Shown here: piece by piece, positions 16,562-30,570 of the stretch
How positions within the stretch are numbered: the first letter of the stretch is position 1
How the letters are laid out: the number at the start of each line of letters is the position of its first letter
Assembly (NCBI RefSeq): GCF_004341235.1
Contig: NZ_SLUP01000006.1
Span: 124,001-188,000 of the forward strand
Length of the DNA stretch: 64,000 nt
Origin: Mariniflexile fucanivorans
GTDB taxonomy: Bacteria > Bacteroidota > Bacteroidia > Flavobacteriales > Flavobacteriaceae
Direction: 5' to 3'
Position numbers and translations under genes: made by a program
The notes under the pieces: generated by a model
Databases searched by the model: none
What the model was told of the DNA's origin: nothing
Seen by the model: the letters and a program-made list of their open reading frames with translations, nothing else

Positions 16562-18874
16562 ATGAAATATACCAATACAGAATTAGAAGAAAAAGCAAAT
16601 AGTTTATTGAATAATGTTCTTTTGGAAGTGTTTGCTCAAAACAATAAAATAATTGGTAAACATCCCAGTAAATTAAGTCATGAGATTGGAATTGACTATT
16701 TCTATGAGATTAGAGACCGAACAACTGGAGAGTCACTCAATGTTGTATTTAATCAAAACAAAGGAACAGAAAAGATAAATATCATTAAAGGGAAATCTTA
16801 CCCAGAAGCTGGAAATATTTCTTTTCAATTAAAATTAAGACATGCAAAATATTTTTTGAATGAACTTAACAAGCCTATATTTTTTACAGTTTGCGATTTA
16901 AAACTAATGAAAGTTTATTGGTATTGGATTCAATTAGATAATTCAATTAAAGAAAGAATAGAAGCACAATTAAAAACGAATAAGAGAACATTACAAATAT
17001 TCATACCTATTACAAATGAACTTAATCTCAAGAACTTCGATAAGTTCTATATGGAATTGGAGAAAAGCGATAGGATTCAGACACATAAATTTTTAAAATC
17101 AAAACTTTCATCTGACGAGGAATATGATTTTAAAGATTTAGAAAATCCTGAAATTAATATTATAGATAAGATACTTAAAAGTATAAAGAAATTTGACGGA
17201 CTTACAATTATACCAAAGCACGTTATAAGTAGAATGTATCCTTTTAAGGGAACAAAAAACAAAACATACTTTTATAATGAAACATTATACACAGACAATT
17301 CTGAATTTTACGATTTATTTGAAGCTTTAGAAAGAAAAAATAATACTATAACTGTTAAAAAAGAATTTAGAGATAATATTTCAATCTCAAACTTTGAAAA
17401 TGAACTAAAAGAAATCATTGATTTTCTAAAGAGTAATCTAATTCAACATTTTAAATGGAATGGCAAAGGGTATAAAGACCGTATATGTATTCATGCTCTT
17501 TATGATTATAGTAACACTTGTGATTGTGAACGATGTAATTATAATAAATTGAACTTTAAATATGCTACTGATTTATTAAAAAACCGAAAGCAAAATGATA
17601 CCTCAATTATTAAATTTAGACAAGCTTATACATATTACTTACTAGGAGATTTAAAAAATGCGTATTTATTATACAAGGAAGTTATCCACGAAACAAAAAA
17701 CAAGGATAACTCAATATTAAATATACTATGTAAATACAATCTTATAAACTTAAAAAACTTAATAAAAAACCATTATTTCGAATCTGACAGACATCAAATT
17801 CTAATCGAATTAAAGAAAATTAATTTTGTTTATGACGAGATTCTAATTGAACATAATTATTACAAGCATGTATTTGATTGGATAAAAGAAAATCAATTCA
17901 TAAATAATTCTATTTGGGAAATTGATAGACAATTTACCGAAATTCAAAATCACCATAGAAAAGATAAAAATGGAGGTTATTTCAGAGGACAACAAGCTAA
18001 TAACCTAAAATTTGAGTTTTTAAGAGTTTCCTTTTTTATTGAGTATAATTTAATAATTTATGATGTATTCAATGAATTTCAAATCCTTGTACATAAGTCA
18101 TTGGAATCAATGTTTGCATTATATAATATATATAATCCTGATTCTACTAAATATGATAAATTTGAATTTACATTCCTATATAATTGGTTGATGCATGGTG
18201 ATAGCACAAAAGTTAATAGATTGCTTCTAAAGTATGATATTAATCAAATTGAATTGAACGATGAACTTCTAGTTTTTAATCGTTTTAATGACAATTTGGA
18301 TAACTTGATTCTTTCCATTAAACGAATAAATGAGAATAAGGAAAATTATCTTTTTAGAGATAAAGTAAAAAATATCATTCAAAACTTCGCTTATATACTT
18401 TCTCGAATTAAAATGAGAAAGACCAAATTAAATTTACTTCTTAAAAAGTATATTTCATTAATTGTATTATTGAAAGATGATTATTTAGTTAGTTTAATAA
18501 AATTTGAAACTCTATTTCATTATAGAAGTGATATAAACCTAACTAATACAAAGAACATTTTAAAATTATTAAGTGAATATGAATTGTTTGACACACATTC
18601 ATATAATAAAGGTTTTGATTATTATTTATCAATTCAAAACTTTGAAAAGAAGGACAATAGATTAGTAAATATTTTTTCAAAAATTGGAACAAGTTTAAAC
18701 GAAGAAACTATAGAAAATGATTTTTTCTCAAATTTCTCAAAATATCAAAATGTATTAGAAGTTCCTGAATTAAAAGAGGAGATTATAAAGGTTGTTAAAA
18801 AAGCAGCAATAAAGAGGTTAGAAGATAATTTTGATTCTAAATATTATTATCGCCTTTCTATTTATGATATATGA
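16562..18874 (+). CDS. Large protein with N-terminal DUF4365-like nuclease domain and helical repeat region; candidate anti-phage effector
   Basis: The 770-residue protein is unusually rich in Asn, Lys, Ile and Tyr. Residues about 20-150 match the DUF4365 pattern: GIDYFYEIRD, then VVFNQNKGTE (QxK-type half of a PD-(D/E)XK active site), SFQLKLRHAKYFL and a KPIFFTVCDLKLMKVYWYWIQ strand. Around residue 320 lies a compact CDCERC motif that could bind metal. A segment with FRQAYTYYLLGDLKNAYLLYKEV then looks like a TPR helix pair, and the rest (400-770) is predicted all-helical. It shares an 11-bp overlap with the next gene (start 18864), implying a two-gene unit. An N-terminal nuclease joined to a helical sensor is common in defence proteins; the immune role is inference. 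Confidence 0.6.
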   Translation: MKYTNTELEEKANSLLNNVLLEVFAQNNKIIGKHPSKLSHEIGIDYFYEIRDRTTGESLNVVFNQNKGTEKINIIKGKSYPEAGNISFQLKLRHAKYFLNELNKPIFFTVCDLKLMKVYWYWIQLDNSIKERIEAQLKTNKRTLQIFIPITNELNLKNFDKFYMELEKSDRIQTHKFLKSKLSSDEEYDFKDLENPEINIIDKILKSIKKFDGLTIIPKHVISRMYPFKGTKNKTYFYNETLYTDNSEFYDLFEALERKNNTITVKKEFRDNISISNFENELKEIIDFLKSNLIQHFKWNGKGYKDRICIHALYDYSNTCDCERCNYNKLNFKYATDLLKNRKQNDTSIIKFRQAYTYYLLGDLKNAYLLYKEVIHETKNKDNSILNILCKYNLINLKNLIKNHYFESDRHQILIELKKINFVYDEILIEHNYYKHVFDWIKENQFINNSIWEIDRQFTEIQNHHRKDKNGGYFRGQQANNLKFEFLRVSFFIEYNLIIYDVFNEFQILVHKSLESMFALYNIYNPDSTKYDKFEFTFLYNWLMHGDSTKVNRLLLKYDINQIELNDELLVFNRFNDNLDNLILSIKRINENKENYLFRDKVKNIIQNFAYILSRIKMRKTKLNLLLKKYISLIVLLKDDYLVSLIKFETLFHYRSDINLTNTKNILKLLSEYELFDTHSYNKGFDYYLSIQNFEKKDNRLVNIFSKIGTSLNEETIENDFFSNFSKYQNVLEVPELKEEIIKVVKKAAIKRLEDNFDSKYYYRLSIYDI

Positions 18875-19415
18875 AGATGAGAGAGAAGGTGATAAAGTTA
18901 TTGAAGATGAACACATTGAAGTATTATTAGAATATGCAATGAGTATTTGTTTAGCACACCCAAATTTAAACAAGGGAGTTATACCAAAACAAGAAGAAGC
19001 AAACTTGATTTATGAACAGCTCTTAAAACTAAAAACCAACTTTGTTTTTTTAGAAATCTCTAAAAACATACCTGATAAAACTGAAGATGAGCCAGATAGT
19101 TGGATGCGTAATAGCGTAATGCTAGATACAATGAACGTCAGAGGAAATGGTTATCATCAACATATTGAAGAATTATACAAGGAGGTTTTTGGACCATTTG
19201 ATGATTTTTTAGAACAATTTTATAGTTTCAATTCTATTGATATTTATAAAACTATTTTCAAATTGGATGATTTGATATTATCAAAAATAGGAACTCTTTT
19301 TGGTAGTGTTAAAAGTCATGATAGATTTATGAGGTGGAATGAAAAAATTGGTAAAGAAAATAAAATAGAATCTCGAAGTTTTCCTTGGCCTCATAAAATT
19401 TTTGTAAAACAATAA
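18864..19415 (+). CDS. Small partner protein of the DUF4365-like gene, unknown function
   Basis: The 183-residue product starts at the ATG at 18864, overlapping the end of the 770-residue gene by 11 bp; a more distal in-frame Met at 18831 would add a hydrophobic run but overlap by 44 bp. It is acidic at the N-terminus. It has a central NVRGNGYHQHIEELYKEVF...GPFDDFLEQFYSF pattern that reminds me of helical modules seen upstream of SEC-C zinc motifs in bacterial accessory proteins, but no SEC-C cysteines are present. It could therefore be a complete small protein or a truncated one. The long degenerate spacer after it is compatible with loss of a 3' part. Confidence 0.5.
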   Translation: MIYEDEREGDKVIEDEHIEVLLEYAMSICLAHPNLNKGVIPKQEEANLIYEQLLKLKTNFVFLEISKNIPDKTEDEPDSWMRNSVMLDTMNVRGNGYHQHIEELYKEVFGPFDDFLEQFYSFNSIDIYKTIFKLDDLILSKIGTLFGSVKSHDRFMRWNEKIGKENKIESRSFPWPHKIFVKQ

Positions 19416-19988
19416 GGTGAAGTGAGCGTGTATATTTTAGGGGTTTAGCAATTATAGTTTCTTAAGAGTTATGGTTACACAAGGGATTTCAAAAAATTGT
19501 AAACGAGTTACAATGTTTCCTAAAATATAGCGAATTAGCCGTAAATTGTTTCCAAAAGTTTATGCAGCCTTGAATTTTTGTTTCTTTTGTTTCAAGACAC
19601 TATTTTAAAGAATTGATTGAGTATCAATTTTTAAAATATCTAATAATGAAACATTAAAAAAAAAAAAGATTAATTGAAGTATTTGAGCAAGGGAAAATTT
19701 TATGCTCTTGTGGCAAGCTTACGAGAATCGTCTAAAATTTTTTATAACGTACATTTTGTCGAATACGCGAATTTTAAAACAGAGTAAAAAGGTTAGCTTT
19801 TAATTTGGCGCTGGCAAGCGATGGATAATTGTGTTTAAAAATAAATGCATTGAGCATTTAAATTTTTAAAAAGCAATCGAGCGCATTGGCATGCGGCTAT
19901 TTTAAATAACGTCTAATTTGTTGGTCGTAAAATAGCTGTTACATAATTGCTATCGATATGAACCTAAAGGCATCATATCTGCAACTAT

Positions 19989-20026
19989 GTAAAATAGAAC
20001 AAAAAGAGTTCTATTCGCTATTTTAC
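19989..20026. repeat. Inverted repeat with two mutually exclusive stems
   Basis: GTAAAATAG (19989-19997) pairs with CTATTTTAC (20018-20026). AATAGAAC (19993-20000) alternatively pairs with GTTCTATT (20008-20015). The left arms overlap, so only one stem can form at a time. TATGTAAAATAGAA from this element recurs near 30555-30568. Confidence 0.55.
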
Positions 20027-20034
20027 TTACGATA

Positions 20035-20060
20035 GTATTTGTTCTATAATTAATAATATG
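20035..20060. repeat. Imperfect internal copy of the island-flanking repeat
   Basis: The segment ATTTGTTCTATAATTAATAA (within 20037-20060) differs by two bases over 24 positions from 30536-30559 (ATTTGTACTATAATTAATAT). It sits 140 bp upstream of the orphan gene at 20200. Confidence 0.5.
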
Positions 20061-20199
20061 CAAATAATAAATCCTAGTAAAATCAATGGCTTAGAGCGAA
20101 AAAATTCATTTACACCTAAATCTGTTTTTTGATTAAGTAAATTCACACAAAAGTTAATCATTCCCTTATTTTGAACCATTTTGTTAATTCGAATTAGGA

Positions 20200-20748
20200 A
20201 TGAAACAATTAAAAATCAGTATTAGTTTATCGGAGTATCAAGAAAAACACACTATTTATTTAGGGCAAGGGGAGTGGCTTAAACACAAAAGCAAAACCTT
20301 TCTAGAAGCATATCTACGAACCTATAAGAAAGTGCTTTTAGACAATGTCAAAATATTAAATTCATACAATTCTCAAATTTACACGTTGTACAGGGCTTTC
20401 TTTTTTGATTTGTCAGATATAGAGGTTGAAAGAGTGAGTAATATCTTTGCAGAATTTAATAAGCAATTTAATTGGATGTTTGACAATATTGGCGGTTGCC
20501 AAAATTCAATTATTTTCTCTAAAATCAATACCTGTATATTCATTTCGTTAGATATTTTATACATACTTCAATCACATGCTCAAACACACAAAAACTATTC
20601 TTTAAAAAATCAAGCCGAAGCTTATATTAAAATGCTTGAAAATTTTAATGAGAAATACGAAAGCGAAAAAAACAGTTTAGATGTTAATAGAAACTATGCT
20701 CAAAACAATATGAGTATTATTAAGGATGATTTTAGAAAGGCTATGTAG
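20200..20748 (+). CDS. Hypothetical protein, orphan in the island
   Basis: The 182-residue protein is predicted to be mostly helical, with no signal peptide. It contains two hydrophobic but not clearly membrane-spanning segments (for instance CIFISLDILYILQSH) and a charged C-terminus. I recognise no family. It is preceded by the repeat-rich spacer and followed, after about 170 bp, by the DUF262 gene. The short spacers could place it with either neighbour, but nothing in the sequence shows an operon. Confidence 0.45.
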   Translation: MKQLKISISLSEYQEKHTIYLGQGEWLKHKSKTFLEAYLRTYKKVLLDNVKILNSYNSQIYTLYRAFFFDLSDIEVERVSNIFAEFNKQFNWMFDNIGGCQNSIIFSKINTCIFISLDILYILQSHAQTHKNYSLKNQAEAYIKMLENFNEKYESEKNSLDVNRNYAQNNMSIIKDDFRKAM

Positions 20749-20922: not shown

Positions 20923-22785
20923 ATGAACATACAGCCAAATAATCAGACAGTTGAAAAGTGTTTAAAGCAAAGAACTTATTACATCGATTTTTATCAAAGA
21001 GAATATGTATGGAAAAAAGAAATTGTCAATATTTTACTTGAAGATATATTTTTCACTTTTGAACTTGCTTATGAAGACCATAAAGATAAAGATCTTACAG
21101 CAGAAGTTCTTGCTAAATATAATTGGTACTACTTAAATATATATATAACCAATACTATCGGGGGCAAAGAGTATATCGTTGATGGTCAACAAAGACTAAC
21201 CACATTAACCTTAATTGCTTTGAAATTGCTCAGACTTGCAATTCTGGATAAAGAATATTTTGAAAACTTAATTGACACTTTGAAAGATTGCATTTATGGA
21301 AAAGACAAATTCAAAGGAAATATTTTTTGGATAGATAATGAGAAAAGAAAACGCATCATGCAACACCTTGTTGAAAACAAGGATTTCACAGGCGAGTTTG
21401 AAAGTGTCACGGAAGAAAATATAAACGAAAGGTTTAAGGATATATCAAAGTATATCGACGACAAAAACTTATCAAAAGAAAAACTTAAATCTTTCATCAT
21501 GTACTTTCTTGAACGATTAGTGCTGGTTGAATTAAAAATTGAAAAAGACGACACGCCTATGGTCTTTGAGGTCATAAATGACAGGGGTGTTGCTCTAAAA
21601 CCTTTTGAAATTTTAAAGGGTAAATTAGTTGGTGCGCTTGACAAAGCTGATACGGAGAAATATAGCACGCTATGGGAAGATTCCATAACTCGCTTAAGCG
21701 GAATTGAAGATGCCTTTTTTATTGATTATTTAAAAGGAAAATTCATTTTCAAAAGGAATGCAGACTTGGAAAAAGCAATTAATAACCAATACCATAGATA
21801 TATATTTGAATCTAATGATATAGCAGACAGTTTACAATTCAGAAAAAAAGATAAAAACCATGCTAAAAATATAAAAGATTTTATAGAAGATGATTTAACC
21901 TATTATTCTAAACTTTATTCGGTAATTAGGAGAAATGAGTATGAATTTTTAAGCTATAACAACGATATAAACGATTTATCTGGTCAATATCAAAATATCA
22001 TAGCTGCATGTACCATCGAAGATGAGAAAGAACAGGTAAAAATTGAATCCATTGCAAAGGAAATTGATAGACTCTATATGTTGCTCCGTTTAAATGGAAT
22101 TTATAATAGTAATAATTATCAAGAAATATCTTACCAATTAAATAGAGATTTGCAACAAAAGGATATTTCTGATTACAGAAATATTTTTAATAACGCCATT
22201 GAACAAAGAATCAAAGAAGCTAGAAATTTAACCCAAATTACATCTTTACTTGATTATGACAGGTTTAAAACAAGGGGATATGATAATATTGAACGCAGAC
22301 CATTGAGATATTTCTTTGCACGTGTTGAAAAATACATTTGTGATAATACAGAAAAAACAATGGAGAATGATGTGCTTTATATCTCCACAAAAACAGGTCA
22401 CAAAACAGGCTATCATATAGAACATATATTATCTAGAAATGATGAAAACAAACAATACTTTCATTCGGATGAGGAGTTTGAAAATCAAAGAAATAGATTA
22501 GGCGGATTACTACTTTTGTACAATATGGATAACATCATTTCTAATAATGAAGAATATTATTTAGGAAAAAGAAAAACCTATAATAATGGTTTAGTATGGG
22601 GCCGTACATTAATTGATAGTTTTTATCATTCAACCAATTCACGTTTTATTGAATTTAATCAACGGTTCAAATCGCAAACTAACATGGAATTTGTTTATAC
22701 TGATAAGTTCGATTCTGAAATTTTGGAGTATAGAAGTAAATTATTATTTGAAATAGTAAAGAAAATATGGATAGTCGAAAATTAA
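20923..22785 (+). CDS. DUF262 / DUF1524-type (GmrSD-like) HNH endonuclease
   Basis: The 620-residue protein joins a DUF262 domain to a C-terminal HNH-type nuclease. The N-terminal ParB-like part shows FYQREYVW (about 23-30) and the hallmark DGQQRLTT (87-94), which in GmrS/DndB-like proteins binds and hydrolyses nucleotide. The C-terminal DUF1524 part shows HIEHILSR (about 498-505) and NRLGGLLLLY with trailing Asn residues, the betabetaalpha-metal pattern. GmrSD fusions restrict modified phage DNA; SspE and other DUF262 defence proteins are related. It stands alone here, between two long spacers, consistent with a self-contained restriction gene. Confidence 0.8.
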   Translation: MNIQPNNQTVEKCLKQRTYYIDFYQREYVWKKEIVNILLEDIFFTFELAYEDHKDKDLTAEVLAKYNWYYLNIYITNTIGGKEYIVDGQQRLTTLTLIALKLLRLAILDKEYFENLIDTLKDCIYGKDKFKGNIFWIDNEKRKRIMQHLVENKDFTGEFESVTEENINERFKDISKYIDDKNLSKEKLKSFIMYFLERLVLVELKIEKDDTPMVFEVINDRGVALKPFEILKGKLVGALDKADTEKYSTLWEDSITRLSGIEDAFFIDYLKGKFIFKRNADLEKAINNQYHRYIFESNDIADSLQFRKKDKNHAKNIKDFIEDDLTYYSKLYSVIRRNEYEFLSYNNDINDLSGQYQNIIAACTIEDEKEQVKIESIAKEIDRLYMLLRLNGIYNSNNYQEISYQLNRDLQQKDISDYRNIFNNAIEQRIKEARNLTQITSLLDYDRFKTRGYDNIERRPLRYFFARVEKYICDNTEKTMENDVLYISTKTGHKTGYHIEHILSRNDENKQYFHSDEEFENQRNRLGGLLLLYNMDNIISNNEEYYLGKRKTYNNGLVWGRTLIDSFYHSTNSRFIEFNQRFKSQTNMEFVYTDKFDSEILEYRSKLLFEIVKKIWIVEN

Positions 22786-23090: not shown

Positions 23091-24773
23091 ATGCCAACAC
23101 TCAATTGGATTGGAAAAGATAAAGTTATAAACCATCATCAAGATGTGCCATTTAGAGTATTGGAACATAAATACGGTTTTACTGCTAAAGACGGACAAAT
23201 AAATGCACAAACCGAAAGCGGAAACAAAATAGTACATGGAGATAATTTAGAAGCCTTAAAAAGCCTATTACCAGAATACGAGGGGAAAATAAAATGTATT
23301 TATATAGACCCTCCTTACAATACGGGAAATGAAAGTTGGGTATATAATGATAATGTTAACCATCCAAAAATAAAAAAATGGTTGGGAGAAGTTGTTGGTA
23401 AAGATGGAGAAGATTTAACTCGGCACGACAAATGGCTATGTATGATGTACCCACGCTTACAGTTATTACACAAACTATTGGCAGACGATGGTGCCATTTT
23501 TATAAGTATTGATGATAATGAACAAGCTAATTTAAAATTGATTTGTGACGAAATTTTTGGGGTGAGGAATTTTTTAGGTTTAATTACACGGAAACAAAGT
23601 AGTGGTTCGAAAAATGATACAGGAAGTAACAAAGTGATTACAACAGCAGACTATATCTTACCTTACAAGAAAAACACTTTTGAATTTCATCCATACCAAA
23701 TTAAGAATAACAAAAAATTCAACCTTAAAGATAAAGATGGTTTTTTTAGTATTAGAGCTTTAGAAATGCAAGGTGGTGGAGATACCCTACCACAAAGAAC
23801 AAAAATGGGTTACTCAGTTTTTTACAATCAAAAATCAAAAGAAGTAAGGATACTTTTTGATTATAACTTAGAAAATCAACCCGTTTACGAAGAAGCAAAT
23901 ATAAAGTTCTTAGAAAAAGGATTTAAATGTTATAGACCAAGAAAAAGAGGGAATGAATATGGGATATGGAGATGGGGTTCAGAAACTTTTTTAGAAAGGT
24001 TTAATAAAAATCTTGTACACTTTGATAAAGGAAGGGTTTATATGAAAGAACGAGCTGTTGATTATGTAAACAAATATCCAGAAGCTTTGCTAGATGAATT
24101 TTTAAATACCCAAGGAACAAATGAATTAAAAGAAATCTTCGACACTAAGAAATTTGATTTTCCTAAACCTTCTGAATTGGTAAAATTTATTGGAACAGTT
24201 TCAACTGACAAAAATTCCATCATTCTCGATTCCTTTGCTGGTTCTGGAACTACTGCACACGCCGTTTTAAACCTAAATAAACAAGATGGCGGAAACAGAA
24301 AATTCATTTTAATAGAAATGGAAGATTACGCCAATGATATTACTGCCGAACGTGTAAAAAGAGTAGCAAAAGGATATGGCAAAGACACTAAAAAAGTTGA
24401 TGGTACAGGCGGAGCATTCGATTTTTACGAATTAGGCTTACCGCTTTTTGGTGCAGACCAAAATTTAAACGAAGAAGTTGGCATACAAAAAATACGAGAA
24501 TACATTTGGTTTTCAGAAACCAGAACAACATATGCCCAACCCAAAGAAAACACAGATTCTAATTATTTATTAGGTAAAAAGGATGATGCCGTTTATTATT
24601 TCATTTACGAAAAAAACCAATTAACCACTTTAGATTTTGATGCTTTAGAATTTATAAAAACAAAAGGTGAACAATATATTATTTATGCAGATAATTGTTT
24701 ACTGCCAAAAGAATTTATGTCAAAAAACAATATCATTTTTAAAAAAATACCACGAGATATTACAAGGTTTTAA
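23091..24773 (+). CDS. Type III DNA methyltransferase (Mod), beta class
   Basis: The 560-residue N6-adenine methyltransferase has the beta-class motif order: catalytic DPPYNTG first (73-79), AdoMet-binding FxGxG as DSFAGSGTT later (380-388). A region of about 250 residues between them serves as target-recognition domain. It would both methylate the recognition site and provide specificity to Res. The MLADDGAIFISIDD-type motif V segment (about 137-147) is intact, so the enzyme looks active. It is 3 bp upstream of the YhcG-type gene. Typical Mod proteins are somewhat longer, but nothing essential seems absent. Confidence 0.9.
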   Translation: MPTLNWIGKDKVINHHQDVPFRVLEHKYGFTAKDGQINAQTESGNKIVHGDNLEALKSLLPEYEGKIKCIYIDPPYNTGNESWVYNDNVNHPKIKKWLGEVVGKDGEDLTRHDKWLCMMYPRLQLLHKLLADDGAIFISIDDNEQANLKLICDEIFGVRNFLGLITRKQSSGSKNDTGSNKVITTADYILPYKKNTFEFHPYQIKNNKKFNLKDKDGFFSIRALEMQGGGDTLPQRTKMGYSVFYNQKSKEVRILFDYNLENQPVYEEANIKFLEKGFKCYRPRKRGNEYGIWRWGSETFLERFNKNLVHFDKGRVYMKERAVDYVNKYPEALLDEFLNTQGTNELKEIFDTKKFDFPKPSELVKFIGTVSTDKNSIILDSFAGSGTTAHAVLNLNKQDGGNRKFILIEMEDYANDITAERVKRVAKGYGKDTKKVDGTGGAFDFYELGLPLFGADQNLNEEVGIQKIREYIWFSETRTTYAQPKENTDSNYLLGKKDDAVYYFIYEKNQLTTLDFDALEFIKTKGEQYIIYADNCLLPKEFMSKNNIIFKKIPRDITRF

Positions 24774-24776
24774 ATT

Positions 24777-25778
24777 ATGAGTAAAGAAATTAGCACCCTT
24801 TTATTTAAAGATTTGTCTCAAATAATAGAGCAAGGAAAAAAACAAGTTGTAGCACAAATAAACAGTACTTTAACATTGGTTTATTGGCAAGTTGGTTATA
24901 AAATAAACACCCATATTTTAAATAATGAAAGGGCAGAATATGGAAAAGAAGTCTTAGCGCAATTATCGGCTCAATTAGAAGAACATTATGGGAGGCAATT
25001 CAATTTAAAAAATGTAAGACGTATGATGAATTTCGCCAAATCGTTTTCAGATTTTGCAATTGTGCCACCACTGGCGGCACAATTGAGTTGGTCGCATTTT
25101 ATAGAACTCATACCATTAAAAAGTCAAGAAGCAAGATTATATTATGCTCAAAAAGCAAGTGAAGAAACTTGGAGCAAAAGAGAGTTGAGAAAACAAATAG
25201 AAAGAAAAGCTTTTGAAAGAAAGGAAATTGCAAAAACGCAGCTTGACACGACGCCAATAGAAATACAAAACTCATTTAAAGACCCTTATTTTTTAGATTT
25301 TTTAGGCTTAAAAGATGGCTATCTTGAAAATGATTTAGAAGGTGCCATTTTAAAGGAATTAGAATATTTTATTTTAGAACTTGGTAAAGGTTTTGCTTTT
25401 GTAGAAAGACAAAAACGATTGATAATAGACGGTGAAGATTTTTATATAGATTTATTATTTTATCACAGAAAAATAAAACGTTTGGTAGCTATCGAATTAA
25501 AACTTGGAAAGTTTAAAGCAGCCCACAAAGGACAAATGGAACTGTATTTAAAATGGTTGGACAAACACGAAAGGCAAGAAGGCGAATATCCACCAATTGG
25601 TTTAATACTTTGTGCAGAAAAAAGTAGTGAGCAAGTAGAATTGCTAGAAATGGGTAAAAATGGTATCATGGTAGCCGAATATTGGACAGAATTACCAGCA
25701 AAAAACGAATTGGAAGCTAAATTACATCAAGCATTAATTGAAGCAAAAGCAAGAATTGAACAAAAAAGGTTAATGTAG
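24777..25778 (+). CDS. PD-(D/E)XK nuclease family protein, DUF1016 / YhcG type
   Basis: The 333-residue protein has the N-terminal DUF1016 helical domain with QLSWSHF (about 102-108) and the C-terminal YhcG nuclease-like domain. The latter has Asp225 in YIDLLFYH and the E-x-K pair Glu240/Lys242 in AIELKLGKF, giving the D...ExK signature. It lies between mod and res with gaps of 3 bp and 1 bp, so it is in the same operon. YhcG-like proteins frequently accompany restriction systems; whether this one is a third subunit, an accessory nuclease or a regulator is not known. The catalytic residues are all retained. Confidence 0.85.
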   Translation: MSKEISTLLFKDLSQIIEQGKKQVVAQINSTLTLVYWQVGYKINTHILNNERAEYGKEVLAQLSAQLEEHYGRQFNLKNVRRMMNFAKSFSDFAIVPPLAAQLSWSHFIELIPLKSQEARLYYAQKASEETWSKRELRKQIERKAFERKEIAKTQLDTTPIEIQNSFKDPYFLDFLGLKDGYLENDLEGAILKELEYFILELGKGFAFVERQKRLIIDGEDFYIDLLFYHRKIKRLVAIELKLGKFKAAHKGQMELYLKWLDKHERQEGEYPPIGLILCAEKSSEQVELLEMGKNGIMVAEYWTELPAKNELEAKLHQALIEAKARIEQKRLM

Positions 25779-25779
25779 T

Positions 25780-28413
25780 ATGGAATTAAAAACCTATCAA
25801 CAAAAAGTTATAGATAATCTTGAAGAATATTTAGAATATGTTCAAGTACATAAAAATGTATCTACCGCATTTAATCAATATTGGGAAGATAAAATTGGTG
25901 CTTATAATCCGTTGGATAATTCAGGCATGCAACCCTATAAAAATAACATTCCTAATGCGGCACACGTTTGTATAAAAGTACCAACCGCAGGCGGTAAAAC
26001 CTTTATTGCCGTTAATGCATTACATACTGTCTTTTCGGCTTATGATACAAGCAAAACAAAAGCCGTTATCTGGCTTGTGCCTTGGAGTAATTTATTGCAA
26101 CAAACCGTTAATGCGTTATCTAATCCAGAACATCCGTACCGCCAAAAATTAAACACTCTCTTTAATCATAAAGTTAGCATTTACCAAAAAGAAGATTTAT
26201 TACAAGGCTCAAATTTTAACCCTACGGTTGTAAAGGAACAATTAAGCATTTTTGTTTTAAGTTTTGCAAGTTTACGAGCAAAGAACAAAGATGATAGAAA
26301 AGTATATCAAGAAAACGGACAGTTAGAATCTTTCGCATCACAATACCCCAATAGAAAACACCTTTTGGAAAATGTTGACGATACGGCACTAATAAACGTT
26401 ATTAGAAGTTTACATCCTGTTTTGGTGGTTGATGAAAGTCATAACGCAGAAAGTGATTTGAGCGTAGATATGCTAAAAAACCTAAATCCATCATTTATTT
26501 TAGATTTAACAGCAACACCAAGAGATAATAGCAATATAGTAAGCCTTGTACCAGCCATCGAGTTAAAAAAGGAACACATGGTTAAACTTCCTGTAATTGT
26601 TTATAATAATCACGATAAAACAGAAGTCATTAATAATGCCCTTCATTTACAGCGTAAATTAGAAATTCTTGCTAAAAATGAAGCATTAGAAGGAGGGAAG
26701 TACATAAGACCAATTATTTTATTTCAAGCACAACCAAAAACAAATGACGATAATACGACATTTGAGAAATTAAAGGAACAATTATTAGGTTTAGGCATTC
26801 CCGAAAATCAAATCAAAATAAAAACAGCCAATATAGACGAACTGAAAGGCATTGATTTAATGGACAAAATGTGTGAAGTCCGTTATATTATAACCGTAAA
26901 TGCGTTAAAAGAAGGGTGGGATTGTCCTTTTGCCTATATATTGGCTTCATTAGCAGATAAATCAAGCGCAGTAGATGTTGAGCAAATTTTAGGTCGAGTT
27001 TTACGTCAACCTTACGTACAAAAGCATAAATCATTTCAATTAAACCTTTCATATGTATTAACAGCTTCGGCAAAATTTAATGAAACGCTTCAAAGTATTG
27101 TTGAAGGATTAAAGGCATCCGGATTTAGCGGTAATGAACATAGGGTAGCTGATAAAATGACGGAAGAAGAAAAGAAAACAGAAACTACAAACCCTTTAGA
27201 ATCATTCTTATTTCCAGAACAACACATTAAGGAAGAAGAAGCAATTGATAAAGGCCGTATTTCTTTTAATCCATTTGCACAAGATGATGAGATTAAGGAC
27301 ACTTCTGTTATTGCTGAAATAGAAACAATGGCAGAAGAACAAAACAAAGAATTAGAAAAGCAAATACAGGAACAAGAAAAACAGCCTATTGACGAAAGTA
27401 TATTTCAAGAAATGGGAGATAAAGTAAAACGTTACCGTGTAAAAGAAGTCAATAAAGAAATTATTGAAAACATAGATTTTCCACAATTTTTTCTAAAAGT
27501 AACGGCAAGTGATATTTTTGGAACAGACGAAGAATTATTAAATAGAGAATCTTTATTAAAGGATTTTAAATTATCTGATGAAGATATTAAAATAGATTTC
27601 GATAAAATTTCAACGGATTTATATAAAGTAGATTTAACTGAAACCGTTAAAGACAATTACACACCAGATTGGGTAAAAATAGAAGAAAGTCAAATAAAAG
27701 ACCCCATATCAGAATATATTTTGGCTAAACCAAAAGAGGCTCAAATAAGTGATATAACCCATCAGATAATGCAAATTATTGGCAATATGTATCCCATTCC
27801 AGACCAAGAAATAAAGAAGTATGTTGCCCGAATTTTAAAAAGTATGAACGTTGAACAAACACGTGATATTTTGGTGAGAAAATGGAGTTATACGGATAAA
27901 ATAAAGGCTAAAATTAGACAACTTTCAGATAGTTATGCAGAAACTCGTTTTTTGGATTTAATAAAGTCAAAACGCATTATAGCCAAAAACAATTGGAAAC
28001 TAATGAAAGAAATTGTTCCTGGTAATGCAGGATCATCCATTGGTAATTCCTTATATGAAAAAGAAGGAATCATGAACAATTTTGAAGAAAAAGTCATTAT
28101 GGAGATTGGAACATCTTCAAACATAGCCTTTTGGCACAGAAACTTAGAAAAAGGAAAAGGATTCTATATAAATGGATTTAAAGCAAATCATTATCCAGAT
28201 TTTATTTTACAAACCAAATCGGGCAAAACAATTCTAATAGAAACAAAAGGAGACCATTTGGATGGTTCAGACAGCGAAGGTAAATGCAGACTTGGAAACG
28301 AATGGGAAAAACAAGCTGGACACGACTTTTCATATTTCATGATTTTTGATAAAAAAGAAGTAGATGGCGCTTATACGTTGGATAAAGCAAAAGAATTGAT
28401 AAGCGAAATGTAA
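25780..28413 (+). CDS. Type III restriction enzyme subunit (Res): SF2 helicase plus endonuclease
   Basis: The 877-residue protein has a DEAD/DEAH-like SF2 helicase with Walker A PTAGGKT (68-74), Walker B-type DESH (218-221), a TATPRD motif III near 250, and motif VI in EQILGRVLRQP. After a variable middle and a charged linker there is a C-terminal endonuclease with Asp807 in YPDF and E821-x-K823 in IETKG. It translocates on DNA and cuts when the Mod-recognised sites are unmethylated. It starts 1 bp after the YhcG stop, so mod, yhcG-like and res form one transcription unit. Length and motifs suggest a functional enzyme. Confidence 0.9.
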   Translation: MELKTYQQKVIDNLEEYLEYVQVHKNVSTAFNQYWEDKIGAYNPLDNSGMQPYKNNIPNAAHVCIKVPTAGGKTFIAVNALHTVFSAYDTSKTKAVIWLVPWSNLLQQTVNALSNPEHPYRQKLNTLFNHKVSIYQKEDLLQGSNFNPTVVKEQLSIFVLSFASLRAKNKDDRKVYQENGQLESFASQYPNRKHLLENVDDTALINVIRSLHPVLVVDESHNAESDLSVDMLKNLNPSFILDLTATPRDNSNIVSLVPAIELKKEHMVKLPVIVYNNHDKTEVINNALHLQRKLEILAKNEALEGGKYIRPIILFQAQPKTNDDNTTFEKLKEQLLGLGIPENQIKIKTANIDELKGIDLMDKMCEVRYIITVNALKEGWDCPFAYILASLADKSSAVDVEQILGRVLRQPYVQKHKSFQLNLSYVLTASAKFNETLQSIVEGLKASGFSGNEHRVADKMTEEEKKTETTNPLESFLFPEQHIKEEEAIDKGRISFNPFAQDDEIKDTSVIAEIETMAEEQNKELEKQIQEQEKQPIDESIFQEMGDKVKRYRVKEVNKEIIENIDFPQFFLKVTASDIFGTDEELLNRESLLKDFKLSDEDIKIDFDKISTDLYKVDLTETVKDNYTPDWVKIEESQIKDPISEYILAKPKEAQISDITHQIMQIIGNMYPIPDQEIKKYVARILKSMNVEQTRDILVRKWSYTDKIKAKIRQLSDSYAETRFLDLIKSKRIIAKNNWKLMKEIVPGNAGSSIGNSLYEKEGIMNNFEEKVIMEIGTSSNIAFWHRNLEKGKGFYINGFKANHYPDFILQTKSGKTILIETKGDHLDGSDSEGKCRLGNEWEKQAGHDFSYFMIFDKKEVDGAYTLDKAKELISEM

Positions 28414-28532: not shown

Positions 28533-29378
28533 TTAATTATTAATAATTTCAATTTCTTTGATATTTTCCTCTAGATCAATTTGATTGCCATCTATTAAAA
28601 ATTGATTAGGTTTAAATACGTTTATATTTATTTCATAATCTTTAATAATATGCTCTACGGCTTTAAAAAGATTTAAGGCTTTTTCTGGAATATCCAATGG
28701 GTGTATTTTTTCGTTTAAATACTCGGTAAGAGAGTTAAAATATAACCATGCATTTAAACCCTTATTAGCAAAATAACGACTTGATTTTTCAGATTGTAAT
28801 TTTATAGCGTTTAAGATTGGATTAGTACCAGCAACACTATTATTTTTTATAATTTCCTCTAAAATATAACCGTTTAACCTTTGAATTTTATCATGAGATA
28901 AATGATAGTTTTTTAAAACTTCAATAATCCTTTTTGATAAATCAATATTTTTTTTGATGTGTTGAAATTGATTTTTAAAAACATCTTTATAAGAATCTCC
29001 AGTACTGGAAATTTCAAATCGAATAATTTGTTCAGCTCCAAAAATGCATAAATTCATACATGCATTAACTTTCACACCAGAATAAATTTTGGCAATAGGT
29101 TTACCTTTGTCAAGTGCTACTATCAATCCCAAATCATAACGTAATTCATTATCTATTTTAAAGTTATAGTTTAAATGAATGCGACCAAAAGAAATGTTTT
29201 CTGTTTTATCCTCGTTTAAATTTATAAACTCGTGTGTGCCCTGAAGTTCGCAATTATAATCATTTTCAATATCAAATAAGCCACTGAATAATTGATTAGG
29301 ACTAGGATAAGATAAAACACCTTTTACATAACCTTTTGAATTTAAAATTTCCTCTTTTTTAAAAGTTCTTGTTTCCAT
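28533..29378 (-). CDS. DUF932/DUF3871-like protein (mobile-element associated)
   Basis: The 281-residue protein faces the restriction cluster. Its middle has GLIVALDKGKPIAKIYSGVKV followed by ACMNLCIFGAEQIIRFEISSTG. This resembles the motif around the Cys-Asn/Thr-Asn-Met-Cys segment of DUF3871/DUF932 proteins that accompany plasmid and integrative elements in Bacteroidetes. The rest is helical with no membrane segment. It lies beside the structured region and could be a leftover cargo gene of an element. The family assignment is by eye and uncertain. Confidence 0.45.
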   Translation of the reverse strand: METRTFKKEEILNSKGYVKGVLSYPSPNQLFSGLFDIENDYNCELQGTHEFINLNEDKTENISFGRIHLNYNFKIDNELRYDLGLIVALDKGKPIAKIYSGVKVNACMNLCIFGAEQIIRFEISSTGDSYKDVFKNQFQHIKKNIDLSKRIIEVLKNYHLSHDKIQRLNGYILEEIIKNNSVAGTNPILNAIKLQSEKSSRYFANKGLNAWLYFNSLTEYLNEKIHPLDIPEKALNLFKAVEHIIKDYEININVFKPNQFLIDGNQIDLEENIKEIEIINN

Positions 29379-29499
29379 TTTATATTTATTTAACAGTTAA
29401 TAATTATTTTCAAGATGTCAAAGAGCGATTTCACAAATACATAGGTTTCTATTTATTCAAAAACTAATTCTAGTTAACCGTTTTTCGTATTAAAAACCC

Positions 29500-29691
29500 C
29501 TTAGTAATGGGAATTTTTGTTTTTCGATACGGTGCTAATTAAGAATTAAGGTTTAACCCCAAAAAGCTTAGAATTTCAAGCATCCCCTTTTTTGGGGGAT
29601 GCGTAGTAAATTCAAGGTTTGCCACCTTTTTGGGGTTAAACCTTAATTCTTACACCTTTGTACTCGAAAAGCAAAAATTCCCATTACTAAG
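29500..29691. repeat. 192-nt long inverted repeat (single foldback)
   Basis: The outer arms 29500-29519 and 29672-29691 pair perfectly (20 bp), continuing through 29520-29527 with 29664-29671. After a short internal loop a 26-bp perfect stem pairs 29541-29566 with 29626-29651. Inside this, CTT/AAG and GAATTT/AAATTC (29571-29576 with 29608-29613) and GCATCCCC/GGGGATGC (29580-29587 with 29595-29602) pair as well. Nearly the whole segment therefore folds as one long hairpin. It could act in DNA (cruciform) or RNA. Confidence 0.8.
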
Positions 29692-29706
29692 AGTTTATAT
29701 AAATAA

Positions 29707-29782
29707 TTTTTTTCGTCGTAATTACGGGGGCGTTCCCCCCGTAATTAGGTTTAACTATCGCCTTAGCGATAGACGAAAAAAA
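29707..29782. repeat. Three-way-junction-like element
   Basis: An 11-bp outer stem (29707-29717 with 29772-29782) encloses two hairpins: a 12-bp stem 29719-29730 with 29736-29747 (TAATTACGGGGG with its complement) and a 7-bp stem CTATCGC (29755-29761) with GCGATAG (29766-29772). This arrangement of one closing stem plus two arms is a non-random, RNA- or origin-like fold. Confidence 0.75.
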
Positions 29783-29787
29783 ATATT

Positions 29788-29819
29788 GTTCCGTTGGAGC
29801 GAAGCGAGTCCGTAGGACA
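29788..29819. repeat. Interrupted palindrome
   Basis: The sequence TGTTCC-gtt-GGAGCG-aag-CGAGTCC-gta-GGACA reads as a palindrome interrupted by 3-nt spacers; TCC and GGA blocks alternate. It directly follows the junction-like element. Confidence 0.5.
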
Positions 29820-29920
29820 TGAAAACACTTCAACTTATTTTTAGAGTAGCAGACATTGGGGCGGTGGTCGGGCGTAAGTATATCATTTGAACCATGTTTT
29901 AATATATTCTTGCAGGATTT

Positions 29921-30010
29921 GCGTTAACGATTGCAGCGGCATCCTTTTTTTTAAATCAAATAAACGCTCGTATTTGATTTAAAAAAAAGATATAGCGTAA
30001 AGCGTGGTCG
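29921..30010. repeat. Flavobacterial-type dispersed repeat with 19-bp hairpin
   Basis: The unit opens GCGTTAACGATTGCAGCGGC and ends with GATATAGCGTAAAGCGTGGT. Between them a perfect 19-bp stem (29944-29962 with 29971-29989) has an 8-nt loop. Its end sequences match, on the opposite strand, the repeat at 41454-41533 (GCGTTAGGGATTGCAGTG). This looks like one family of dispersed intergenic element. Confidence 0.6.
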
Positions 30011-30044
30011 ATGGCTTTAAAATTTTTTAAAGCTATCGAAACGC
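30002..30044. repeat. Hairpin adjoining the dispersed repeat
   Basis: TCGATGGCTTTAAAA (30008-30022) pairs with 30025-30039 with a single G-T wobble; outside it GCG (30002-30004) pairs with CGC (30042-30044) across a small internal loop. The loop proper would be about 6 nt after opening the terminal A-T pairs. Confidence 0.6.
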
Positions 30045-30110
30045 CCAAGTAAAAAAAAATAATTTATATAACTGAAAATGTGAGAACGCCCCCTATAACA
30101 TGTTCTCCTA

Positions 30111-30134
30111 GGTTGCGGTTTCGCAATCTTTTTT
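30111..30134 (+). terminator. Intrinsic terminator ending the structured region
   Basis: GGTTGCG (30111-30117) pairs with CGCAATC (30122-30128, one G-T pair), loop GTTT, and six T follow (30129-30134). No protein gene precedes it on the plus strand for about 1.7 kb, so if it works it would end a non-coding transcript from the hairpin region. Confidence 0.65.
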
Positions 30135-30531
30135 AGGTTAATTTACTGAATATCAATAAAATATAAAAAACTAAGATAAAATACTTACAAACTTATTTAA
30201 AAGTCTATAAATCAATAGATTACAAAAATGAATATGAGATGGTTTGAATTAAATCATAAACAACTGTATTTCAGTTGTTTAAATAAAATAAAGTGTTTTT
30301 GTTTTTTTTAATAGAAAAAGTAATTTAATTTTAAATAATAAATAACTTCAAGGTGGTCTTTGATTTGTTGGAATGAGTATAACTTTTTTAAATTTTTTCT
30401 TCACCTAACGATAGAATAATTAATTTAAGCCTAAAAGTGTTTTTATTTGTTATTCATTTTTTTAAAAAAATATACTATTGATTACTAATGATTTAAGATT
30501 CAAGCCTATTTTTATTTGAAAACTTACAATC

Positions 30532-30570
30532 TAACATTTGTACTATAATTAATATTATGTAAAATAGAAT
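30532..30570. repeat. Right copy of the 18-bp direct repeat bounding the island
   Basis: TAACATTTGTACTATAAT (30532-30549) is identical to 16335-16352. It continues TAATATTATGTAAAATAGAA, sharing a 14-base TATGTAAAATAGAA run with 19986-19999 and an imperfect 24-base match with 20037-20060. Confidence 0.6.

Follow-up and report, generated by a model that had tools for sequence, protein, structure and literature searches.

The stack of strong hairpins at positions 29480–30145 of the window, which is the whole 64,000-nucleotide stretch of Mariniflexile fucanivorans DNA analysed here, is probably the non-coding (intergenic or origin) control region of a lineage of single-stranded DNA phages related to FLiP. 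It is located at the dif-proximal end of an element that carries defence genes. The boundaries of the element are recognizable in the sequence, both ends of the stack are homologous to a region in the same position in a provirus of Mariniflexile gromovii, base pairing is kept between the two, and one hairpin-loop is shared with phage FLiP. The region may function as an origin of replication and may be transcribed, and the element may behave as a satellite. The features of the element and of its structured end are listed by position in the window.

20038–20066, + strand, attL, left boundary, dif-like site TTTGTTCTATAATTAATAATATGCAAATA with five mismatches to the dif of the window
20200–20748, + strand, first gene, 182 aa, 65% identical to the gene of the M. 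gromovii provirus (alignment A7)
20923–22785, + strand, GmrSD/DUF262-type protein, 620 aa, defence cargo (Pfam PF03235, 7e-24; PADLOC Orf5/HEC-06)
23091–24773, + strand, type III DNA methyltransferase (Mod), 560 aa, defence cargo (Pfam PF01555; PADLOC MTase_III, 2.6e-184)
24777–25778, + strand, DUF1016/YhcG PDDEXK nuclease, 333 aa (Pfam PF06250, PF17761; PADLOC PDC-S02)
25780–28413, + strand, type III restriction subunit (Res), 877 aa (Pfam PF04851; PADLOC REase_III, 1e-73)
28533–29378, − strand, orphan protein, 281 aa, divergent from the structured region
29480–30145, + strand, whole structured non-coding region, 666 nt (fold z −16.1)
29495–29696, + strand, long foldback, perfect outer stem of 20 bp and perfect inner stem of 27 bp
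29706–29817, + strand, three-way junction, then TCCGTTGGAGCGAAGCGAG and a small covarying hairpin (models R1 and R2; 32 of 32 pairs kept)
29916–30013, + strand, Flavo-1 (RF01705) match with the 19-bp hairpin inside, 54.6 bits (gathering 42)
30008–30039, + strand, hairpin 30008–30022/30025–30039, 14 of 15 pairs Watson–Crick and one G–T
30082–30107, + strand, signature hairpin GAGAAC-GCCCCCTATAACAT-GTTCTC, loop common to FLiP, M. gromovii and element 2 of genome G077
30110–30135, + strand, second hairpin and T run, terminator-like, directly 3′ of the signature hairpin
30537–30565, + strand, attR, chromosomal dif TTTGTACTATAATTAATATTATGTAAAAT, identified by pattern count in family genomes

Structure of the non-coding region

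The minimum free energy of the region folded as RNA is −251.7 kcal/mol, compared with −149.8 ± 6.3 kcal/mol for shuffled sequences (z −16.1, n = 20). Folding with DNA parameters gives z-scores of −17.2 for the plus strand and −16.3 for the opposite strand (20 shuffles per strand). The longest open reading frame of at least 60 codons inside the region encodes 61 residues. The original prediction of a gene-free hairpin stack ordered beyond chance is thus borne out, with the stems agreeing with their original description to within a base or two.

The outer arms of the foldback (29495–29527/29664–29696) are complementary at 30 of 33 positions and contain the predicted perfect run of 20 bp, whereas the inner arms (29540–29566/29626–29652) pair at 27 of 27 positions and not over the 26 bp originally given. 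The inner hairpin, CTTAGAATTTCAAGC...GCGTAG.AA, is common to the window and M. gromovii. The three-way junction is closed by a stem of 11 bp (29707–29717/29772–29782) and has arms of 12 bp and 6 bp. The first two lengths agree with the prediction; the third, predicted as 7 bp, reaches this length in the minimum free energy fold, in which its last pair competes with the closing stem. The TCCGTTGGAGCGAAGCGAG segment at 29790–29808 is identical in M. gromovii. The predicted 19-bp hairpin (29944–29962/29971–29989) is perfectly paired and positioned inside the Flavo-1 match, and the predicted 15-bp hairpin is confirmed except for its single G–T pair. The signature hairpin, the key piece of the region, has a 6-bp stem and a 14-nt loop; the original prediction did not single it out. 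The predicted terminator corresponds to a terminator-like site at 30110–30129 with a T run; two such sites were found in 1 kb on both strands, compared with 0.8 expected.

The plus strand folds better than its complement in both the window (−251.7 versus −222.5) and M. gromovii (−200.7 versus −191.5), with more G–U pairs (17 versus 7 and 14 versus 7, respectively). Since these properties fit an RNA and a viral DNA strand alike, they do not decide between the two. In the window and M. gromovii, the sequence searched upstream of the region contains no copy of the promoter motif TANNTTTG; one copy is present at element 2 of G077. Sigma-70-like sites occur close to the chance level (five versus 3.9 expected in the window, and five versus 3.7 in M. 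gromovii).

The Flavo-1 match covers 98 of the 666 nt. Flavo-1 is dispersed, with 45 matches in the genome of the window strain (E 0.001) and 20–47 in each of six genomes of the genus; 188 of 299 family genomes contain at least one match. At the genome density, 0.006 copies would be expected in 666 nt, and a weaker copy (37.4 bits, below gathering) is present at the matching place in M. gromovii. Therefore, Flavo-1 looks like a part of the structured region. Other Rfam matches below gathering were set aside.

When the foldback (29440–29800) was searched as a dispersed repeat, high scores were obtained only for itself and its own palindrome, and 44 of 298 other family genomes gave short matches only (E 1.7e-4 to 0.01). 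Exact patterns of the stack were not found in IMG/VR, and blastn of the stack against phages and plasmids gave no match at E 0.1. The pattern GAACGCCCNNNATAACATGTTC occurs among genome contigs in M. gromovii and in one Planctomycetota MAG, for which there was no loop-pattern match among the loci scanned for the signature hairpin.

The dif-bounded element and its genes

The element measures 10,528 bp (10.5 kb) from the dif-like site at 20038 to the chromosomal dif at 30537–30565, and the structured region forms its dif-proximal end. The TTTGTACTATAATTAATATTATGTAAAAT site is located upstream of an OmpA gene. Allowing up to three mismatches, 179 of 249 family genomes contain its pattern, almost always as a single copy, and the reversed-pattern control gave no hits; TTTGTACTATAATTAATATTATGTAAAAT is therefore taken as the chromosomal dif, which is a site of repeated insertion. 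The attL site directly precedes the first gene, as do the dif-like sites in the other such elements seen. With dif-like sites at its boundaries and an intact dif at one end, the element fits, as far as sequence can indicate, a Xer/dif-integrated element (IMEX). No recombinase was found among the six element proteins scanned with Pfam (the first gene product, GmrSD, Mod, DUF1016, Res, and the 281-aa protein), and integration would be carried out by the XerC/XerD of the host.

The first gene belongs to the family that occupies the first position in dif-bounded FLiP-like proviruses. Its profile matches 7 of 397 family genomes, including that of the window strain; the profile (A7) is too divergent for a scan of viral contigs. 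The gene next to the stack had been called DUF932/DUF3871-like and was used to argue for a mobile-element origin. This support falls, because searches of Pfam, PHROGs, NCBIfam, and PADLOC assigned the 281-aa protein to no family at the limits used; a single stretch of 65 aa has a match in a fecal phage (E 2e-3). Of the two functions originally proposed, a cis-acting region for the transfer or replication of a mobile element is supported in kind: the stack occupies the dif-proximal end of an element bounded by dif-like sites and has a specific hairpin-loop in common with FLiP. No FLiP-like Rep was detected in the genome of the window strain (profile A9, E 0.01). Five Reps and five capsid-type proteins (the FLiP MCP and four proteins in capsid position) gave no tblastn match to the element at E 0.01.

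The corresponding pair of dif sites in M. gromovii KCTC 12570 (G299) bounds 14.8 kb upstream of the same OmpA-family gene. The provirus contains the first gene, a Rep that matches that of FLiP, further phage-type genes, and the structured region towards dif, at the same end as in the window element. It also carries DNA methyltransferases and a single-strand binding protein. Blastn matches between the two elements comprise the first gene (68% nucleotide identity), two blocks of the stack, the dif/att sites, and two stretches of 25–35 nt; their interiors otherwise differ. The window element is longer than the FLiP genome (9.2 kb), a point against the phage reading; the M. gromovii provirus is longer still.

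Element 2 of G077 (z −4.3), FLiP (z −3.4), and G324 (z −5.0) are moderately structured, and the right end of the G204 element is unstructured (z −0.65), which counts against a general rule that dif-bounded elements of this kind end in a structured region. The G204 element (L292:5246–7605) has a dif-like site with eight mismatches and a first gene of the same family as that of the window element, followed, instead of by a Rep gene, by UmuC/UmuD-like genes on the other strand. The G324 element (L295:2307–10294) is a dif-bounded, 8-kb element of single-stranded DNA phage type. Its first gene is of this family too, its Rep is of the REP_ORF2-G2P type (PF23343), and its right end is structured.

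Further structure accompanies dif sites in the family. A second structured region ("type B"), which is conserved, occupies 19650–20036 (+ strand) of the window to the left of attL (z −4.8 for 19420–20037). Type B sits directly before dif-like sites and had a blastn match in 62 of 100 family dif loci. In 60 of these 62 the match is on the same strand and at most 700 nt ahead of dif; 22 loci contain an additional copy farther than 1.5 kb upstream. It has no Rfam match at gathering level. In 62 of 100 genomes (L180–L279), the 300 nt preceding dif contain the reverse complement of the XerD arm (TTTTACATAAT, at most one mismatch); a control stretch 2 kb away contains it in 4 of these genomes, and the downstream side in 2. 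The arm forms one side of a hairpin in which 6 of 15 pairs are changed on both sides in an alignment of the window with 30 of 38 picked dif loci. The attP of phage CTXphi is folded, and the XerD-arm hairpin is reminiscent of it. Just left of type B, the stretch 16562–19415 encodes a DUF4365 protein of 770 aa and an orphan protein of 194 aa, perhaps the cargo of another dif element. The sequence ATGTCAAAGARCG is present both at 29415–29427, just before the structured region, and at the start of the non-coding gap of G077 (L149:2547–2559), and is possibly a shared leader or protein site. A scan of 100 genomes for att sites in the 12 kb preceding dif was dropped because it found fewer loci (7) than the reversed control (19).

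Conserved pairing and the signature hairpin

One of five other genomes of the genus, that of M. gromovii, contains a homologue of the structured region (L083:4328–4895), which has a strong fold of its own (z −15.0). Its order is foldback, three-way junction, TCCGTTGGAGCGAAGCGAG, a weak Flavo-1-like part, a AGAACGCCC..TATAACATGTTCT hairpin, and a terminator-like hairpin. In blastn alignments, 354 columns cover the first part of the stack at 60% identity, counting gaps, and 76 nt cover its last part at 72%. The middle (about 29809–30082) has no blastn alignment and corresponds by order and by its sub-gathering Flavo-1 score.

The original prediction named conservation and covariation in relatives among the points to check, and both were found in M. 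gromovii. Covariance model R1, built from the window junction alone, scores the M. gromovii sequence at 67 bits (E about 1e-15). Seventeen of the 32 kept junction pairs differ between the two genomes, 16 of them by compensatory changes on both sides, and none of 500 shuffles scored as high. When the pair partners were slid, paired cells fell to 46.6–53.2% and double changes to 2–4. The alignment leans towards the window structure, because it was fitted to it; an independent MAFFT/RNAalifold run on 29480–29830 has 26 of 74 pairs doubly changed. The MAFFT alignments A2, A11, and A12 misplace stems and were excluded as evidence of pairing. The two-sequence model R2 matches two of six genus genomes, those of the window strain and M. 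gromovii, and nothing above 14 bits in 100 dif loci (0 of 100). With strict filters, R1 found only the window genome among 397 family genomes, a sample in which the presence of M. gromovii is not shown. The full stack is thus known from two genomes only. Weak R2 matches were set aside: L280:3917–4023 (18.7 bits, E 0.04), L141:13647–13734 (18.0 bits), window 29943–30015 (17.9 bits) and two lower ones, and two of 13–14 bits in dif loci.

The signature hairpin is located near the 3′ end of the structured region and has the loop G..CC..TATAAC.AT. It recurs in M. gromovii as AGCAGAAC-GCCCTATATAACAT-GTTCTGCT, in the second FLiP-like element of G077 as GGTACAC-GAGCCTATAACTAT-GTGTACC, and in phage FLiP as GTTAGTGT-GAGCCTATAACAT-ACACTAAC (2578–2606), inside the largest unannotated, non-coding gap of the phage genome (2230–2702, 473 nt). 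The four elements differ in the stem but have the loop in common. In 4.1 Mb of scanned sequence, a total that includes both strands, the exact loop closed by 5 or more base pairs is confined to these four sites (13 hits with redundant copies); a looser loop with a stem of at least 6 bp gave four further hits in the 100 dif loci, whose 2.46 Mb likewise include both strands. The hairpin is present in four of nine single-stranded DNA phage-type elements checked, and therefore it is not shown to define the FLiP-like group. The pattern is absent from element 1 of G077, G154, IMG/VR contig L280, G324, and G238, of which only the first 4.3 kb are on the contig. L280, the only viral contig matched by Rep profile A9, also has no match to R1. 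In each of the four elements, the signature hairpin is succeeded by another one (stems of 5, 7, 6, and 7 bp in an exact search); the FLiP copy of this second hairpin has no T run. Since a second hairpin with a stem of at least 6 bp also follows 160 of 2000 random positions in the window, it is weak evidence on its own.

Between the genomes of FLiP and FLiP-2 there are 305 differences, of which 26 lie in non-coding DNA (PMC13269007). The 473-nt gap contains four differences, where the average over the genome predicts 15.7 (P 5e-4); three of the four are unpaired in the FLiP fold, and none affects either hairpin, both of which are identical. Divergence would be about 2.7% in the remaining non-coding DNA, compared with 0.8% in the gap. 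Apart from the hairpins, the FLiP gap has no convincing alignment to the stack. The Rep of the M. gromovii provirus is 29% identical to that of FLiP over 27% of the query (E 1e-9). Pfam Phage_CRI/G2P, a family of the gene II protein type, is matched above its cut-off by two Reps, those of FLiP (8e-8) and G154 (2e-7); the Rep of M. gromovii falls just below it (7e-4), and those of G238, element 2 of G077, and L280 have no Phage_CRI match at E 1.

Function, alternatives, and known systems

In a single-stranded or circular form of the element, the stack would act in cis. A gene-II-type Rep may nick the signature hairpin, with the TATAAC loop as the candidate site, and so start rolling-circle copying. 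By analogy to filamentous phages, the other stems could serve as a start or priming site of the complementary strand, in packaging, or in stopping transcription.

The lack of a detected FLiP-like Rep in the genome at E 0.01 implies that the element could move as a phage only with a helper. Rep and capsid genes were not detected, whereas the cis region and both att sites have been kept, so the element may be a satellite that requires a FLiP-like helper for copying and packaging. A satellite can be delimited as an element without virion genes that keeps the cis sites of its helper lineage, and this is what the window element appears to be, if the stack is such a site. It is possible, and we propose it tentatively, that the element is a satellite of the FLiP lineage of lipid-containing single-stranded DNA phages, which has kept the left-end gene, the hairpin origin, and the dif sites, carries defence genes in place of phage genes, and travels as single-stranded DNA in the capsid of a helper. 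The G204 element is neutral in this respect, because only 2 kb of its contig remain beyond the first gene.

It is rather unlikely that the element is instead the dead remnant of a FLiP-like provirus that lost its phage genes by deletion or recombination at dif, where defence genes then landed, leaving the stack as a fossil. Repeated insertion at dif and the missing helper Rep would suit such a history; however, the stems have not decayed. Their longest perfect run is 27 bp, compared with 23 bp in the gene-bearing provirus of M. gromovii, the fold energy per base is −0.378 compared with −0.353, and every junction pair is intact. The first gene is open, and both att sites are recognizable. The intact stems, gene, and sites argue against a long-dead fossil, although two genomes cannot settle the matter.

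A structured non-coding RNA with its own terminator, the other function originally proposed, is unlikely but has evidence in its favour. The region would then encode an RNA of about 650 nt that includes a Flavo-1 domain, is produced by these dif elements, and stops at an intrinsic terminator; the GOLLD and ROOL RNAs of phages are similar in size and setting. The covariation of the junction, the better fold and additional G–U pairs of the sense strand, and the Flavo-1 match at gathering level in the window are consistent with it, as is the second hairpin with a T run, which suits RNA and is kept in both full homologues. However, the sense-strand bias is equally expected of viral single-stranded DNA, the upstream stretches offer neither TANNTTTG nor an excess of sigma-70-like sites, and the best shared motif is with the gap of a single-stranded DNA phage, in which the second hairpin is not followed by a T run. 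None of the large-RNA families of Rfam (GOLLD, ROOL, OLE) has a covariance-model match to the region. Flavo-1 was listed as a candidate RNA by Weinberg et al. 2010 (PMC2864571); in the report on F. psychrophilum, as far as consulted, its hits are both sense and antisense, with many outside transcribed regions, and are not tied to transcripts (PMC9723704).

The density of hairpins also led to the original analogies with MITEs, retron msr-msd regions, and relaxase oriT sites. These are highly improbable, because the genome contains a single full-length match, no reverse transcriptase or relaxase was found with Pfam among nine neighbouring proteins, and the shared motif points to phage DNA.

If the satellite reading is correct, the control region of the element would contain a new hairpin-loop replication origin. 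The signature hairpin is a concrete candidate for the replication origin of Finnlakeviridae. To our knowledge, the known defence-carrying phage satellites belong to tailed double-stranded DNA phages. A defence-carrying element with the ends of a lipid-containing single-stranded DNA phage would widen this group and would offer restriction systems a route to the dif site. The parts consulted of the papers on FLiP and PhiCjT23 describe no replication origin for Finnlakeviridae (PMC13269007, PMC9719478), and none of the open-licence titles and abstracts listed describes the present non-coding region or any satellite of these phages that carries defence genes.

The window element shares with FLiP and FLiP-2 of the Finnlakeviridae a structured non-coding stretch in which the signature hairpin-loop precedes a second hairpin, and the Rep of the M. 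gromovii provirus is related to that of FLiP. Unlike these phages, the window element carries defence genes and has no detectable Rep or capsid gene, and its cis region is longer, about 650 nt compared with 473 nt. FLiP itself does not integrate (PMC13269007). By contrast, PhiCjT23-like proviruses of Flavobacterium integrate at dif, presumably using the host XerC/XerD, and are bounded by dif-like sites (PMC9719478), as is the window element; theirs carry Rep and capsid genes, whereas none were found here. The Flavo-1 family resembles one segment of the stack, but its copies elsewhere in the genome are dispersed.

The RS1 and TLC satellites of CTXphi also integrate at dif and depend on another single-stranded DNA phage. 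They differ from the window element in phage family and cargo, and a dependence of the latter on a helper would be a further trait in common. In filamentous phages of the M13 type, intergenic hairpins extending over hundreds of bases hold both origins, the packaging signal, and a transcription stop, and the gene II protein nicks within this region. The window element and its relatives resemble this arrangement in their run of hairpins over hundreds of bases and in a gene-II-type Rep, a likeness of parts. On the basis of this parallel, the stack is read as the same kind of region, with presumably similar functions, for the FLiP lineage.
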